A stretch of 39,097 nucleotides of DNA. Source: Sandaracinaceae bacterium. Lineage in GTDB: Bacteria; Myxococcota_A; Polyangia; Polyangiales; Sandaracinaceae. The notes below the pieces were generated by a model that did no database searches, was not told where the DNA came from, and saw only the letters and a program-made list of their open reading frames with translations. This document shows positions 511-12,700 of the stretch, in pieces (within the stretch, counting starts at the first letter, position 1; each line of letters opens with the position of its first letter). The DNA is taken from the NCBI GenBank assembly GCA_019637095.1, contig JAHBWG010000087.1, positions 1 to 39,097 on the forward strand, written 5' to 3'. Both the position numbers and the translations under genes were made by a program.

Positions 511-1494
511 TCAGGACGACGTGCTCGCCTCGGACGCGACGAAGTCGGCGTCGTAGATGTCGAGCTCCTTCTTGAGCTTCGCGGGCATCCAGTCCTCGTC
601 CTGCCGCGGCGGCGGCAGCACCAGCGGCTCGCCGTCGAAGGTCATGCGCTTGCCCGGCCACACGTACGCCTCGATCAGGTACGGCAACAGCGCCACCCGG
701 TTCAGGTTCGGGTGGAGGTGCGGCGCGAGCTCCTTCTCGTGCGCCTCGGGCAAGAGGCTCCAGTGCAGCCCCGGCTTCATGTGGTGCATCCCGTGGAAGC
801 CGTTGTTGAAGGTGAACCAGTTCACCAGCTTGCCGGTGAAGTTCCGGCTGTGATCGTAGGGGTGCTCTCCGTCGCAGCCGTCGTGCTGCACGAAGTTGAT
901 CCCCATGATCCCCCACGCCGCGTACTGGTGCGGGATCACCACGAACACGATGAACTTCAGGGGCAGGAAGCCGAAGAGCTTCACCGGATCGAGCACCGCG
1001 AGCGCGACGAGGAACGACAGGTACGCGACCAGCTCGATCAGGAACTGCCGGTACCACGCCGGGTTCGCGCGCCGCATCGCCTTGGCGAACCGCGCGTTGT
1101 CGCGGAAGATCGGCGGCCCGACCACGAGCGAGAAGAAGAGCTGGTTCAGGAGGTTCCAGCGGAAGCGCATCTTGTCCGTGCGCATCCGGTCCTTGGGCCG
1201 CTGCGTGTACTTGTGGTGGCTCAGGTTGTGGCCGGGCACGTACATGCTGACCGGGTGCCCGTAGCCGTTGGTGAGCAGCACCTGGAAGATGCTGTTCAGC
1301 ACGCGGCTCTTGAACACGGGGCAGTGGACCGTGTTGTGCGTCGCGACCGCGATGAAGAACGCGAGCAGGCAGAGCGGCACGAAGAAGGCGATCCAGCCCC
1401 ACCAGGGCAGCTCGAGCGCGTACGCCGCGGCGAGCAGCACGTAGTAGGTCAGGACGAACGCGATGGTGCGGAGATCGGCGGTGTGTCGGAGCAT
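511..1494 (-). CDS. Membrane fatty acid desaturase (327 aa)
   Basis: This is an integral-membrane di-iron desaturase or hydroxylase of the FA_desaturase superfamily, expected to introduce a double bond (or hydroxyl) into lipid acyl chains using O2 and reduced ferredoxin or another donor. The three histidine boxes are visible: HNTVH at residues 53-57, H-x3-HH at 89-94, and HGMHH at 234-238, with an extra His at 204. Hydrophobic spans lie near residues 10-50, 115-130 and 155-200, as in the family, and the length is typical. The ATG at 1494 begins directly before the first hydrophobic segment. Substrate and position of desaturation cannot be read from sequence; carotenoid or sterol-type relatives are possible. 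No partner reductase lies next to it. The 61-nt gap to the upstream Hint-lipoprotein gene could allow co-transcription. Confidence 0.9.
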   Translation of the reverse strand: MLRHTADLRTIAFVLTYYVLLAAAYALELPWWGWIAFFVPLCLLAFFIAVATHNTVHCPVFKSRVLNSIFQVLLTNGYGHPVSMYVPGHNLSHHKYTQRPKDRMRTDKMRFRWNLLNQLFFSLVVGPPIFRDNARFAKAMRRANPAWYRQFLIELVAYLSFLVALAVLDPVKLFGFLPLKFIVFVVIPHQYAAWGIMGINFVQHDGCDGEHPYDHSRNFTGKLVNWFTFNNGFHGMHHMKPGLHWSLLPEAHEKELAPHLHPNLNRVALLPYLIEAYVWPGKRMTFDGEPLVLPPPRQDEDWMPAKLKKELDIYDADFVASEASTSS

Positions 1495-6161: not shown

Positions 6162-8012
6162 TCACTCGCCGGCGAGGCCGGTGGTGCGCTCGACGCGGCG
6201 GCGGATCGAGCGCGCGAGGAGCGTCGGGTCGGCGACGACGTCGACGCGCCGGCGCGCGCGGGTGATCGCCGTGTAGACGACCTCGCGCGTACAGAGGCGC
6301 GGGTGATCCTCGGACGGCAGGAGCAGCACGATCTCGTCGTGCTCCGAGCCCTGCGCCTTGTGGACGGTGGTGGCCCACGCGAGCTCGAGCACGCCACGGA
6401 TCGCGTCGAGCGGGAAGGCGGCGAAGCGCTCCTCGCGCCGGAACACGGCGCACAAGCGCGGGGTGGAGCCGGCGTCCGGCGCGACCCAGAGGAGCAGGCC
6501 GCGATCGCCGTTGAAGAGGCCGTGCTCGTAGTCGTTCTCGGTCACCATGACGGGCTCGCCCGCGACCCAGCGCGGCTCGCCGGCGAGCTCGCGGTGCGCC
6601 CACGCGTTGACCGCCTCGACGCTCGTCGGCCGCCAGCCGTGCCGGGTGACGCAGAGCAGGGCGCGCTCCTGTGCGCGGGTGAAGAGGGCGTCGAGCCGCT
6701 CGGGCTCGCGCCAGCCGTCGGCGTCGCGGACGAAGGTGCGGCGCGCCGGCTCGCCCAGGCGCGCGCGCTCGAGCCACTCTCGCAAGAAACGTTGACGCGC
6801 GTCGGGCGCGGCGTCGCGCAGGAACACGCCCGGGCCGTCCATCGGCGGCAGCTCGCCTCGGTTGACGCGCGCGGCCACCTCGAGGATGTGCGAGCCCTCG
6901 GGCTGGCTCGGATCGACGCGGTGGCTGTGCGTGAGCCGGACGGACGGCGCGCGCGCGGCGAGGTCGCGGAACACCGCGCCGGCGGCGACCGAGGGGAGCT
7001 GGTCGGCGTCACCGAGCAAGACGAGCTGCGCGTCGCGGCCGAGGCACGCGAGCACGCGCTCCATGAGGAAGAGGTCGATCATCGAGCCCTCGTCGAGCAC
7101 GACGAGGCGCTCGGAGAGCGGGCTCGCCTCGTGGTGGCGGAAGCGGCGCGCGCTCGGCGACCAGCCGAGCAGGCGGTGGATGGTGCGCGGGCGCGGCAGG
7201 CCGTCGAGGAGCGCGCGGTCGGTGGGGAGCGCGTCCTCGATCGTCGCGAGCGCGGGCTCGATCGCGCCCCGCATGCGCTCGGCGGCCTTGCCGGTCGGCG
7301 CGGCGAGGGCGATCGCGCTCGGCGCGAGGTCGCCGCGCGCCATCGCGGCGCGCAGGAGCGTGACGACGATCGACGTCTTGCCGGTGCCCGGGCCGCCGCT
7401 GATCATGACGAAGCGGTGGGTGAGCGCGAGCTCGACGGCGCCGCGCTGCTCGGCGGTGAGGACGACGGGGCCGCGCGGGGTGACGGACGGGCGCGCGAGC
7501 ACGCGCGCGAGCGCATCGCGCGCGCCGGTGCTCGCGCCCGCGGGGGTGGGGCTACAGGCGAGCGCCTCGACGCGCGCGACGAGGGCGCGCTCGACCGCGC
7601 GCACGCGCTCCGAGGTGACGAAGCCGCCCTCGATCACGAGCGGGCGATCCTCGCCGGCGAGGCCGGCGAACGCGCCCTCGTCGAGCCGGCGCGCGAGGTA
7701 GGCGCCGAGCGCGCGGTCGGCGAGGACCTCGGCGGCGCGCTCCGCGAGGTCGGCGCGGGCGACGCGCGTCGAGCCTCGGGCGAGCGCCTCCGTGACCAGC
7801 AAGGCGAGCGCCTCGAGCGCGCGGCGATCCTCGGGCGCGAGCCCGGGCGCGAGCCGCGCGAGCTCCCACGCGAGGTGCGCCTCCTCCGGCGCGACGTCGG
7901 CGCGGACGAGGGCCTCGCGCGAGAGCGGCGCGAGCTCGGGCGGATCGGCGGCGCCCTCGCCGAAGCCGGCGGCGAGGCGGGCCGCGCCGTGCGCGCGCCA
8001 GGGCGCGGTCAC
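6162..8012 (-). CDS. recD: RecD, exodeoxyribonuclease V alpha subunit (616 aa)
   Basis: RecD is the 5'-3' SF1B helicase of RecBCD, the complex that processes double-strand breaks for RecA. Walker A GGPGTGKT is at residues 206-213, GKAAERM at about 241-247 (motif Ia), DEGSMID at 307-313 (Walker B; E. coli-type RecD has DEASM), GDADQLPSV (motif III), and TVHKAQGSEHDE plus VYTAITRARRRV near the C-terminus (motifs V and VI). The length matches RecD. The start is GTG at 8012, overlapping the TGA of the preceding 37-codon ORF (GTGA), with GGGAGG 5 nt upstream inside that ORF. This is translational coupling as normally seen between recB and recD, but recB itself is missing here. Confidence 0.95.
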   Translation of the reverse strand: MTAPWRAHGAARLAAGFGEGAADPPELAPLSREALVRADVAPEEAHLAWELARLAPGLAPEDRRALEALALLVTEALARGSTRVARADLAERAAEVLADRALGAYLARRLDEGAFAGLAGEDRPLVIEGGFVTSERVRAVERALVARVEALACSPTPAGASTGARDALARVLARPSVTPRGPVVLTAEQRGAVELALTHRFVMISGGPGTGKTSIVVTLLRAAMARGDLAPSAIALAAPTGKAAERMRGAIEPALATIEDALPTDRALLDGLPRPRTIHRLLGWSPSARRFRHHEASPLSERLVVLDEGSMIDLFLMERVLACLGRDAQLVLLGDADQLPSVAAGAVFRDLAARAPSVRLTHSHRVDPSQPEGSHILEVAARVNRGELPPMDGPGVFLRDAAPDARQRFLREWLERARLGEPARRTFVRDADGWREPERLDALFTRAQERALLCVTRHGWRPTSVEAVNAWAHRELAGEPRWVAGEPVMVTENDYEHGLFNGDRGLLLWVAPDAGSTPRLCAVFRREERFAAFPLDAIRGVLELAWATTVHKAQGSEHDEIVLLLPSEDHPRLCTREVVYTAITRARRRVDVVADPTLLARSIRRRVERTTGLAGE

Positions 8013-8122
8013 GCGGGCCTCCCGGCGTGCGCGCGCGCGCCGATGGCGATCGGCCGCGGCTCGTCGATCCTCTCCGTGCCGACGTTCGCATGGGACCTCG
8101 CGTCGAACCTCGCGTCGCTCAT
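8009..8122 (-). pseudogene. 37-codon ORF in the recB slot; probable recB deletion remnant
   Basis: The ORF starts with ATG at 8122, overlapping the recC stop (ATGA), has GGAGGGG just upstream, and ends with TGA at 8011-8009 overlapping the recD start (GTGA). It encodes 37 residues beginning MSDARFDA. In recCBD operons a gene of about 1,100-1,200 codons lies here. The double overlap and strong Shine-Dalgarno fit the true start and end of recB with the body removed in frame. Alternatives: a genuine coupling micropeptide, or an assembly collapse. No RecB motif (GTGKT, nuclease GxxDxxL) is left. Confidence 0.5.
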
Positions 8123-11100
8123 CGCCCCTCCAGTCGGCCGAGGAAGGGGGCGAAGCGGCGCTCGAAGATCGCCTCCGCGCGGCCGGGCTCGGGCGCCGGG
8201 CGCGCCGGCGCGTCCGCGACGGGCCCGAAGCGCGACTGACCGCCGCCGCGCGTGCGCACGTCCTCGATCGCCGCGACGAGCCGCTCTCCGTCGGCCTCGC
8301 GCGGGCGATCGGCGAAGGCGAGCGCCGCCTCGATCGGGAAGAGGTAGTCGTGCGCGCCCCCGAGCAGGTCCGTCACGAGATCGGTGAGCCAGGCGCGCGC
8401 CGCGTCGGGCGTGATCGGCGCGAGCGCGATGCGCACCGGCGCGTCCGCGTCGCCCAGGAGCTGGACGGAGCGCCGCGCCCCCTCGCCCTCGCCGAGCAGC
8501 GCGAGCGCGGCGTGGTCGAAGAACGCGCGCAGCGCTTGGCGCAGGTGCTCGTCGCGCGCGGCCGCGCCAGCCTTCTTCGAGAGCAAGAGGCTCACCGACG
8601 CGTCCCCGCGCAGGAGCTCGGTCGCCCCGACGAGCTCGACCCGCAGCGGCCGGCCGTGGTCGCGCGGGTCGTCCGCGAGCGTCAGCGCGACCGGCGGCGC
8701 CGCGTCGACGCCGCGGCGATCCGCGTCGGCCGCGCCGAGCTGCACGCGCCGCGCGGGCGCGTCGCCGAGCGCGTCCCAGCCGCGGCGCCAGGTCTCGAGG
8801 ATCTCGCGGTGGGCGCCCTCGAGCCGCGCCGCGAGCGGCCCGAGGGGCCAGCGCCCCGCGGCGATCGCGGCGTCGACCGCGCGCAAGTAGGCTTGCTCCG
8901 TCGTAGCCTCCGCGAGGACCGCCTCCTCGAAGCAGGCGCGCAGCACGATCGTCTCGTCGAGCCGCCCCGGCGCGAAGGGCTCCTCGGACGTCGTCGCGGC
9001 GACGTCGGGGCGGTCCTCCTCGACGCGCAGCACCGCGCGCGCCCACCCCTGCAACGGGCACTCGAGGAAGCGGCGCAGCGCGGCGAGCGAGAGGCGCAAG
9101 GTCCCCTCGCGTTCGCGCGCGGCCGCGCGCTCCGGCAGCGGCGCGAGCCCGAGGGCGCGCTCGAGGGCCGGGTCGCGGGCGAGCGCGCGCGCCGCCTCGC
9201 CCGCGCCGAGGGGCAGCGCGGCGTCGTCGAGCGCCTCGCGCAGCGGGCGCCCGAGCCGCCTCGCCTCCGCCTCGCGCGCCGCCTCGGGCAGGATCGCGCG
9301 CGCGGCCTCGTCGTCGTGCCGGTGGAGCGGCAGATCGCGCTTGACCAACGTGTCGCGCGCGCCCGGGAGGTAGCCGTCCTCGATCACGTCGAGCAGCTCC
9401 GTCACGACCACGCTCGGGGCGAGCGGCTCTCCGGTCTGCTCGTCGCGCGCGACGTACGACAGGATCAGGCGCTCGCGCGCGCACAAGAGCGTCTCGAGGA
9501 ACGTGTAGCGATCGCGCTCCGGCGGCGTCACGTCACCGGCCATGCGGCGGGCCGCGCGCAGGTCGAGCGCGTCGCGCCGGTCCGCCGCGGGGAAGCGGCC
9601 CTCGCCGAGGCCGAGCACGAAGATCACCCGGAACGGGATCGCGCGCATGGGCACGAGCGAGGAGACGGCGACGCCGTCTGCGAGGTGCGCGCCGCGCGTG
9701 CCCGTGAGCTCCTCGAGCGGGCCGCGCAGCAGCTCCCACACGACGGGGTAGCGCACTCGCCGGCACCCGAGGTCGAGCGCGGCGAGGCCCTCCGCGATCG
9801 AGAGCGCGCGGCGCAACGCGGCCTCCTCGGCGTCGCTCGTCGGTGTCAAGTAGGCGTGCATCATCGCGCTCGCGAAGCGCGCCCACTCGGCCAGCGAGAG
9901 CGCCGCCTCGCGGGCGAAGCGCACGTCGCTCGCGAGCGAGCGCGCGAGGAGCGCGAAGCGCGCCTCGACGAGCGAGCCCACGGGCGCCTCCTCCGGCAGG
10001 TAGGCGCGCGATCCGATCGCGATCGGGCGCGGCGCGCCGGCGACGCGGGCGCGCGCGTACGCGCCGAGCGCGATCCGCGTCAGGCCCTGCTCGAAGCTCA
10101 GCCGATCGTCGTCGCCGACGTAGGTCCCCGCGAGCTCGCTCGCGTCGATGCCGTGGAAGATGCCCAGCCGCTCGGCGAGCGCGACCCACTCGTGCGGCGT
10201 CACGTCGGGCACCCTCGCGAGGACGGCGGGGTGCGTCATCACGGCGAGCACGTCGGCGCGGGCGAAGGGGACCGTCGGCAGCGCGAACAGGCGCAGCGCC
10301 CCCTCGACCAGGGGGCTGACCGAGGCCAGCGCGACGTCCGCGACGTTGAAGGGGATGGCGCGCGCCTCGGCGAACACCGCCTCGACGTGCGGCAGGTACG
10401 CGTCGCGGTCCGGCCCGTTCACGAGGACGGCGATGCGGTCGAACGTCAGGTCGTCGATCACCTCCATCAGCCGCCAGATCTCGGCGGCGACCGCCTCGAC
10501 CTCGCGGCGGCGGCTCGGCGCGGCGAGCACCAGTACGCTCTCGTCGCGCGGCGCGGCCGGCGGCGGGCGCACGCGCGGGGCACGTGTCAAGACGTCGTGC
10601 TGGAGACGGTGGAGTAGCGGCGGCGCGTCGAGGAGCGCGAGCAGCGGGAGAGTCTCGTCGCGCGCCGCCGCCGCGCGGCCGGCGAGCGGGTCGACGAACG
10701 CCGCTTCGAAGTCGCACTCGGTGAGCACGCCGAGCAGGCGCACGTGCTCGCGGCCGGGGCGGCCCCAGCGCGCGAGCAGCGGCGTCTCGGTGTCCACGCT
10801 CAGCCGGAACGGGTCCTCGTCCTCGAGCAGCCACGCAGGCTCGGCCGCGCTCGTCCGGCGGCGGCGGCGGAGCTCGCTCGGCGTCTCGACGTCTTCCCAG
10901 AACTCCTCGCACGGATCGAGCGCGTAGAGCTCGAGCTCGGCGCGCTCGCCGATCGCGCGGAAGAGCTGCGCGAAGGCCCGCGCGACGTAGGAGATCCCGA
11001 AGACGTGCAGGCGCGCGGGGACCGGTCCGTCGAGGCGCTCGATCGCCGACGCGAGCGTGTGCGCGGCGGGCTCGACGTCGCGCGCGAACCGGAAGACCTC

Positions 11101-11601
11101 CGCCTGCCACCCCTCGGTCGGCGCGAAGGGTGTCGCCTCGAAGCGCGCCGCGCCGCGCGCCCACGCCTCGAGCAGCTCGGGGCGCGAGAAGCCGTACTCC
11201 TCGAAGAGCCGCGCGACGTGCAAGGCGAGCTGCGCGCGGCGCGGCTCGATCGCCTCGGGGGCGCTCCCCGCCGCGTCGAGGTAGCGACGGACCGGCCCGA
11301 GCGAGGGCGCGGCGAGCAGCGCCTCGTCGTGGAGCGCGCGGAGCACGCGCGCGGTGAGCGCGCGCCCGGTGAGGAGCGGCGCTGGAAGGAGCTCCTCGAC
11401 GAGCGTCCCGAGCCGGAGGAAGCGCAGGTTGGCGGCGACGCCGAGGCGCCGCGCGACGCCGAGCTCGACGTACCGCTCCACGTTCGCGTTCGGCGTCACG
11501 ACGAGCGTCGGCGTGAGCGGATCGGCGTCATCGGCGTCGAGGCGCCGCGCGAGCGCCTCGAGCAGCGCCTCGGAGCGGTTCGAGTAGGTGAGCCGGATCA
11601 T
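8119..11601 (-). CDS. recC: RecC, exodeoxyribonuclease V gamma subunit (1160 aa)
   Basis: RecC is the inactivated-helicase scaffold of RecBCD that scans for Chi and guides the unwound strands. The N-terminus (RLTYSNRSEALLEALARRL, then TLVVTPNANVERYVELGVA and NLRFLRLGTL) follows the RecC start, and the pattern of an UvrD/PcrA-like core without Walker motifs holds through VFGISYVARAFAQLF, LVLAAPSRRREVEAV and VFVLGLGEGRFPAADR. Length is at the top of the family range. The ATG at 11601 matches the conserved N-terminus. First gene of the leftward rec operon. It diverges from the TonB-like gene at 11666 with 64 nt between. Regulation is not evident; no -10 of the common type lies at the start codon. 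Confidence 0.93.
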   Translation of the reverse strand: MIRLTYSNRSEALLEALARRLDADDADPLTPTLVVTPNANVERYVELGVARRLGVAANLRFLRLGTLVEELLPAPLLTGRALTARVLRALHDEALLAAPSLGPVRRYLDAAGSAPEAIEPRRAQLALHVARLFEEYGFSRPELLEAWARGAARFEATPFAPTEGWQAEVFRFARDVEPAAHTLASAIERLDGPVPARLHVFGISYVARAFAQLFRAIGERAELELYALDPCEEFWEDVETPSELRRRRRTSAAEPAWLLEDEDPFRLSVDTETPLLARWGRPGREHVRLLGVLTECDFEAAFVDPLAGRAAAARDETLPLLALLDAPPLLHRLQHDVLTRAPRVRPPPAAPRDESVLVLAAPSRRREVEAVAAEIWRLMEVIDDLTFDRIAVLVNGPDRDAYLPHVEAVFAEARAIPFNVADVALASVSPLVEGALRLFALPTVPFARADVLAVMTHPAVLARVPDVTPHEWVALAERLGIFHGIDASELAGTYVGDDDRLSFEQGLTRIALGAYARARVAGAPRPIAIGSRAYLPEEAPVGSLVEARFALLARSLASDVRFAREAALSLAEWARFASAMMHAYLTPTSDAEEAALRRALSIAEGLAALDLGCRRVRYPVVWELLRGPLEELTGTRGAHLADGVAVSSLVPMRAIPFRVIFVLGLGEGRFPAADRRDALDLRAARRMAGDVTPPERDRYTFLETLLCARERLILSYVARDEQTGEPLAPSVVVTELLDVIEDGYLPGARDTLVKRDLPLHRHDDEAARAILPEAAREAEARRLGRPLREALDDAALPLGAGEAARALARDPALERALGLAPLPERAAAREREGTLRLSLAALRRFLECPLQGWARAVLRVEEDRPDVAATTSEEPFAPGRLDETIVLRACFEEAVLAEATTEQAYLRAVDAAIAAGRWPLGPLAARLEGAHREILETWRRGWDALGDAPARRVQLGAADADRRGVDAAPPVALTLADDPRDHGRPLRVELVGATELLRGDASVSLLLSKKAGAAARDEHLRQALRAFFDHAALALLGEGEGARRSVQLLGDADAPVRIALAPITPDAARAWLTDLVTDLLGGAHDYLFPIEAALAFADRPREADGERLVAAIEDVRTRGGGQSRFGPVADAPARPAPEPGRAEAIFERRFAPFLGRLEGR

Positions 11602-11652
11602 GCGCCTCGGGGCTCGATGATGCCTCGCGCGGCGCCGGAGGTCGCCAGTCGT

Positions 11653-11658
11653 TACACT
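11653..11658 (+). promoter_or_regulatory. -10 hexamer TACACT, leaderless start of the TonB-like gene
   Basis: TACACT ends 7 nt before the GTG at 11666, and the intervening GCGCGGC has no Shine-Dalgarno. No -35. Confidence 0.6.
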
Positions 11659-11665
11659 GCGCGGC

Positions 11666-12700
11666 GTGACCGGGGTGCTCCGCCGATCGTTCCTCGCGCC
11701 GTGGGTGCTGGTGTCGGCGATCGTGCATGCGCTCCTGTTCCTCGGCGTCGCCGGCGGCCTCGGGCTCGTCACGCGGCACGGCGCGACGTTCGGCGACGGG
11801 TACGGCGGCCAGTCGATCGAGGTCGAGATCGCGGGCCCGACCCACGGCGAGGCCCACGGCGCGCTCCAGCCGACGAGCGATCGCGCCGCGCCCTCCGAGG
11901 CGGTCCCCGAGGCCGCCGCCGACGAGGAGGCGCGCGACGACGAGGTCCCCGAGGAGATCGACGCCGAGGGCGAGGTCCCCATCGAGGTCGCCGAGGCGCT
12001 CCCGCGCCCTGCGCCGCGCGCGCCGCGCGAGCCGCGGCCCGCCGCCGAGGAGGGGATCGCGCCCGCGCCCGGCGTCTCGCCCGCGGATCAGGTCGACGAT
12101 CCGAGCGCCACCGCCGAGTCGTCGCCGGGGCTGCACCCGGACCCCTCCGGCACGGGCGGCGCGGGGACGCTCGCCGGCCCGCCCGCCGGCGACGTGCCGG
12201 GGCTCATCCTCGGCGCCGCGGGGATCGGCGGCGCGGTGAGCCCGCGCACCGCGCTCCTGCCGAACGGCGGGGTCTGCGCCGACCCCGTCGCGGGCACGTG
12301 GCGCGCGCAGAAGTTCCGCCCGACGGACCGCACGTGGGTGCGCTTCGTCCTCGACATCCGCCGCGGCGGGGACGGCGAGCTCTCCGGCACGATCACGAGC
12401 CGCATCTGGTCGGGGAACCGCTCGAGCCCCAACCCTGGCGCGTGCACCGCGTTCGGCATGGATCACACGTGGCGCATGCGCGCGCGCGGTCGCTACGAGG
12501 GCGAGCAGCTCAGCTTCCGCTCGGTCGGCGGCGCGCGCCTCGTCCGGCAGGACTGCCCGCGCGCGGACTCCCTCTACGCGCCGGACTCGTTCACGGGGCG
12601 CGTGCACGTGCTGCGCGAGGTGTTCGAGTCCGTCAACAACGACGGCGCGTTCGACATCGACGAGCCGTACGTCTTCCGCCGCGTCTCCTGCGCGGAGTGA
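11666..12700 (+). CDS. TonB-like membrane-anchored protein with unassigned C-terminal domain (344 aa)
   Basis: The N-terminus has the TonB/AgmX build: short basic cytoplasmic tail (VLRRSF), one transmembrane segment at residues about 13-36 with a His as in TonB-type anchors, then a Pro/Glu/Ala-rich periplasmic spacer to about residue 180. The C-terminal 150 residues (from CADPVAGTWRAQKF onward) do not look like the TonB domain: they read as strands of a beta-barrel or sandwich (WVRFVLDIRR, GELSGTITSRIW, YEGEQLSFRSVGG) with four or five cysteines. I infer a periplasmic effector domain delivered by a TonB-style stalk. No ExbB or ExbD gene lies nearby. GTG start is chosen from the -10 position and the charge of the N-region. 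Confidence 0.75.
   Translation: MTGVLRRSFLAPWVLVSAIVHALLFLGVAGGLGLVTRHGATFGDGYGGQSIEVEIAGPTHGEAHGALQPTSDRAAPSEAVPEAAADEEARDDEVPEEIDAEGEVPIEVAEALPRPAPRAPREPRPAAEEGIAPAPGVSPADQVDDPSATAESSPGLHPDPSGTGGAGTLAGPPAGDVPGLILGAAGIGGAVSPRTALLPNGGVCADPVAGTWRAQKFRPTDRTWVRFVLDIRRGGDGELSGTITSRIWSGNRSSPNPGACTAFGMDHTWRMRARGRYEGEQLSFRSVGGARLVRQDCPRADSLYAPDSFTGRVHVLREVFESVNNDGAFDIDEPYVFRRVSCAE

Follow-up and report, generated by a model that had tools for sequence, protein, structure and literature searches.

Probable relocation of recB out of the recC-recB-recD operon in a Sandaracinaceae lineage, and a 37-codon open reading frame at the recC-recD junction of one genome

In an early survey, the three recBCD genes lay together in 28 of 31 genomes and were dispersed in 3 (PMC1193525). 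In E. coli the order is recC-ptrA-recB-recD (PMC12342828). Outside the family Sandaracinaceae, recC loci with sufficient sequence on their flanks almost all read recC-recB-recD, and a recB match is found just downstream of recC in 68 of the 91 genomes of the order that have recC; the other 23 include four of the split clade described below, many truncations at contig ends, and a few probable independent separations. At five loci of related lineages (L121, L065, L090, L091, L094), recC is followed by several kb with no detectable recB or recD, and these are probably independent dispersals of recBCD. Where the genes for subunits of a complex overlap, their translation is commonly coupled through termination and reinitiation.

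The window analysed here, 39,097 nucleotides long, is the entire contig C184 of a Sandaracinaceae genome of 9.25 Mb in 197 contigs, and nine other genomes served for the comparison within the family. The features of the window are compiled in Table 1. The locus shares with recC-recB-recD operons the same three proteins, the position of recC before recD and the same 4-nt overlaps, and with the recCBD operons of Sandaracinaceae relatives also the gene downstream of recD; it differs in that recB lies elsewhere and in that a 37-codon open reading frame occupies the junction, the latter in this species only. As in E. coli, the usual order has been altered by rearrangement, but E. coli gained an inserted gene and kept recB in place, whereas here it is recB that left (PMC12342828). 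As in the genomes with dispersed recBCD genes, no single locus encodes all three subunits; in contrast to those cases (PMC1193525), the move can be placed, most likely, on one branch of the tree, and recC and recD still overlap or nearly do so.

Table 1. Positions of the features of the recC-recD locus and of the downstream desaturase gene in the window
Feature	Position	Strand	Details
recC (exodeoxyribonuclease V gamma)	8119..11601	-	1160 aa, start ATG at 11601
GGAGGGG, Shine-Dalgarno-like, inside recC end, ahead of small ORF	8125..8131	-	
37-codon ORF between recC and recD	8009..8122	-	4-nt overlap at each end (ATGA, GTGA)
106-nt spacer inside junction, recC to recD	8013-8118	-	part of 37-codon ORF
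GGGAGG, Shine-Dalgarno-like for recD, inside small ORF	8018..8023	-	5 nt before GTG
recD (exodeoxyribonuclease V alpha)	6162..8012	-	616 aa, start GTG at 8012
fatty acid desaturase gene	511..1494	-	PF00487

At the junction, the recC stop codon TGA (8119-8121) shares the tetranucleotide ATGA with the ATG of the small open reading frame (8120-8122), and this frame (MSDARFDARSHANVGTERIDEPRPIAIGARAHAGRPA) terminates in a TGA (8009-8011) which shares GTGA with the GTG of recD (8010-8012), the earliest start possible in the recD frame. The coordinates therefore confirm the overlaps with both neighbours described in the initial annotation, and the two Shine-Dalgarno-like sequences that it had named, one before the small frame and one inside it, were both located; a GGGAGGG ahead of recD in one relative (G005) stands in the same place as GGAGGGG here. 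Because the small frame runs back through recC as a stop-free stretch of 491 codons, its start is defined solely by the overlap. That recB is absent between recC and recD, as had been claimed, holds true at this locus of the window.

The view of recC and recD as intact genes is borne out as well, since the family matches span nearly the full lengths of both products. RecC has the match expected of the RecC subunit of RecBCD, PF04257 at 5.1e-50 and above its cut-off, aligns with its relatives from Met 1, and is 60% and 58% identical to its orthologues; TIGR01450 covers residues 16-1116 (1.3e-112) at 377.7 bits, below the cut-off of 582.9. RecD matches AAA_19 and UvrD_C_2 above their cut-offs and carries the Walker A motif GGPGTGKT, as befits an SF1B helicase, its N-terminus aligns with those of relatives, and its TIGR01447 match (2.6e-89) reaches 300.4 bits, below the cut-off of 310.15. 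The RecB of this organism, described below, likewise scores below its NCBIfam equivalog cut-off; since the RecB of a recCBD relative, the syntenic protein of G006, also falls short (531 vs 696), these cut-offs are non-discriminating in the family. A second RecD-family helicase, RecD2 or RecD1, is encoded on another contig of the same genome (L146, G000:C131:48874-50193, + strand; TIGR01447 276.7 bits).

RecB has not been lost. When the organism's own genome is searched with the RecB model, a protein of about 1,210 residues comes up at about 10136-13792 of contig C180 (G000:C180). It matches TIGR00609 in both helicase parts, N-terminal and C-terminal, and in the nuclease part, contains the domains PF00580, PF13361 (UvrD) and PF12705 (PDDEXK_1) expected of the RecB of RecBCD, and shows the motifs GTGKT, DEFQDT, the nuclease signature RGVIDLV...DYKSD, and QxxxY. 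TIGR00609 is its best NCBIfam match (510.5 bits, the nearest AddA model reaching 169.7), and the score of 510 is close to the 531 of its syntenic counterpart in G006. The genome thus encodes an intact RecB, the full-length protein with UvrD helicase and PD-(D/E)XK nuclease for which the initial annotation had suggested a search, and of the possibilities it had raised, that of RecB being supplied from elsewhere is the one that stands, with the same split seen in three relatives. The gene is interior to its contig and flanked by unrelated genes. The location of all three genes at one locus, usual for recBCD though not required, is not found here: recB is on C180 and recC-recD on C184, two contigs without a join. 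An open frame upstream of recB (L047, 9722-10130) has the look of a decayed four-helix-bundle protein. Of the AddAB system, for which a search had also been suggested, an AddA-like protein exists in addition to RecB: an AddA-type helicase-nuclease with UvrD and PDDEXK_1 domains is encoded on the + strand of contig C165 (L055, G000:C165, about 8170-11583), with a TIGR02784 score of 241 bits, below the cut-off of 860.75, so AddA-like and RecBCD genes coexist in this Sandaracinaceae genome.

Within the family, the split arrangement, with recC joined directly to recD and recB on another contig, recurs in G005, G002 and G008. The order recC-recB-recD is kept in G001 and G006 and is found also in G035 and NAT131, and in G003 and G009 recC is followed by recB up to the end of the contig, which in G009 falls within recB. 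In G001, recC/recB and recB/recD both overlap by GTGA. The near-identical locus of G006 (L051) is unlike that of G001, where recC and recB overlap directly, in that about 0.9 kb (10826-11770) separates the two genes and holds an open frame whose product would be a lipoprotein-like repeat protein rich in Asp and Arg. The RecC tree (100/100) and the RecD tree (97/96) each unite those split species that they include, and all four are united in the RecB tree (quick method, support 100). The agreement of the three trees argues for a single move and vertical descent; recB was most likely relocated once, in the ancestor that this species shares with the G005/G008 and G002 lineages. Replacement of RecB by horizontal transfer was considered and rejected, as the RecB tree agrees with those of RecC and RecD.

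The direction of the move can be read from the neighbouring genes. In G001 and G006, both with recCBD, recD is closely followed by a desaturase orthologue, and the desaturase gene of the window lies 4.7 kb from recD; the two orthologues (G001:C1:9574354 and G006:C1:8678503) are 62-63% identical to it, the next best family member about 40%. Since the desaturase gene is still near recD here, the recC-recD site is the ancestral one and recB the mover. In the same part of the window, on the minus strand, positions 1556-2383 encode a secreted lipoprotein-like protein with a weak C-terminal Hint_2 match (27.1 bits, below the cut-off of 28.4). In the family, a PC4-like gene (L086 2076-2549; L087 1057-1518; G000:C195:29797-30174) is confined to the split species, and in G005, G008 and G002 it is next to recB, which lies behind it. 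In the present genome it is found on a third contig, and therefore either recB or its PC4-like neighbour has moved again. It is very likely that the organism has a normal RecBCD system with an intact RecB whose gene has been relocated. The domains of the three proteins are intact and their inheritance is shared, and on these grounds RecC and RecD would form an ordinary RecBCD helicase-nuclease with the distant RecB.

The junction left behind is of a different kind in this genome. In G005, G008 and G002, recC and recD overlap directly, by about 4 nt, with neither spacer nor mini-ORF, and in these species the end of recC and the start of recD are recognisably those found here. Among the genomes sampled, only this one has the 106-nt spacer with its mini-ORF. 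On the trees, an insertion in this genome is as parsimonious as the disappearance of a remnant from the sister lineage. The G+C content of the small frame by codon position is 24, 23 and 36 of 37, a distribution reached by 0.0003 of shuffles, and the third-position value of 36/37 fits either translation of the frame as a mini-cistron or the in-frame insertion of some coding DNA.

A possible history may be put together from these features. Excision of recB left recC joined to recD by a 4-nt NTGA overlap of the kind seen at recC/recB and recB/recD in a recCBD relative; the junction would then have gained about 106 nt in this genome only, with both NTGA overlaps preserved and the path between them still open in frame, so that a ribosome ending recC could start the 37-codon frame, end there, and start recD. 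In E. coli, coupling drops by 80-90% or more at a distance of 38 nt already (PMC10666635), and a plain gap of 106 nt would accordingly be expected to uncouple recD. With an NTGA overlap and a Shine-Dalgarno-like site at either end, the small frame resembles known cases of termination-reinitiation coupling at ATGA overlaps (PMC6728339, PMC10666635), with the difference that the mini-ORF would be a putative relay rather than a gene. Tentatively, selection might thus have kept a sequence-neutral mini-cistron as a translational relay from recC to recD after the departure of recB and the insertion of 106 nt, a proposal to which we give rather less than even weight. On the other hand, the small frame could be a plain neutral insertion: 37 codons free of stops arise in 64% of shuffles at this G+C content, the right frame would be hit one time in three, and recD has a good Shine-Dalgarno-like site of its own and may not need coupling at all. 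The third-position G+C of 36/37 in the very frame of the relay counts in favour of the relay.

The source of the spacer was sought along several lines. A copy of part of recC was suggested by the string PRPIAIGxRA, shared with RecC, and by a score of 50 against recC DNA, which none of 200 base shuffles reached; this origin was rejected, for 10 of 214 ordinary coding pieces of the genome score as high, and in the same kind of control a duplication of the recC tail or of the recD start does not rise above background. A MAFFT alignment of the junctions sets the 3' end of the spacer against the recC tails of relatives, which is a forced alignment, and a family-wide DNA search with the small frame yields short G+C-rich hits by the dozen in almost all genomes, a matter of composition and not of homology. 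The spacer has no Rfam match, folds no more strongly than shuffles (z 0.98), and shows no promoter or terminator in a sigma-70-type scan.

One of the two readings offered by the initial annotation was an in-frame deletion of recB that preserved the start, end and coupling signals of the gene; the 37-codon frame would then be what is left, erased in the sister lineage. The small frame does occupy the exact former place of recB, with bounding NTGA overlaps and coding-like third positions, and the position of the species as sister to those with clean junctions allows for a remnant. The comparison with RecB ends that had been proposed shows, however, no similarity above background to the N- or C-terminal ends of RecB from the same genome or from relatives, a weak test given the poor conservation at the very ends of RecB; RecB has a conserved RPxIL motif near its start, which the small frame does not show at the expected place, and recC and recD of the sister species overlap with no remnant between them. 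A deletion remnant is on these grounds unlikely.

Still less probable, to the point of being very doubtful, is the view that the small frame encodes a conserved peptide with a function in the RecBCD system, a reading to which the Shine-Dalgarno-like site, the overlaps and the coding-like third positions would lend themselves. The small frame is missing from the homologous junction of G005, G002 and G008 and is thus not a conserved small protein there, it has no Pfam or NCBIfam match, and a family-wide protein search returns background only, with a best E of 0.01 outside the window. The unrelated conserved gene of 37 residues that the initial annotation had envisaged in relatives is likewise refuted for the family as sampled. 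Its coupling peptide survives in weaker form, as the sequence-neutral relay, and the peptide itself is probably not functional. That recB was dropped between recC and recD by a collapse of the assembly, to which a genome in 197 contigs might seem prone, is scarcely credible, as the separately assembled G005, G002 and G008 show the same recC-recD adjacency with differing junction sequences and the organism's own recB is whole on another contig among other flanking genes.

Dispersed recBCD genes were already known, and this locus adds an instance whose history is clear; it reveals no RecB-free enzyme. It indicates that a stable three-subunit complex can outlive the departure of one subunit gene from the operon, and as the event is placed, most likely, on one branch, the stoichiometry of RecBCD after the loss of co-translation becomes comparable between sister genera. 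The junction of this species would add one natural case in which to ask whether a mini-ORF can bridge the gap between coupled genes.
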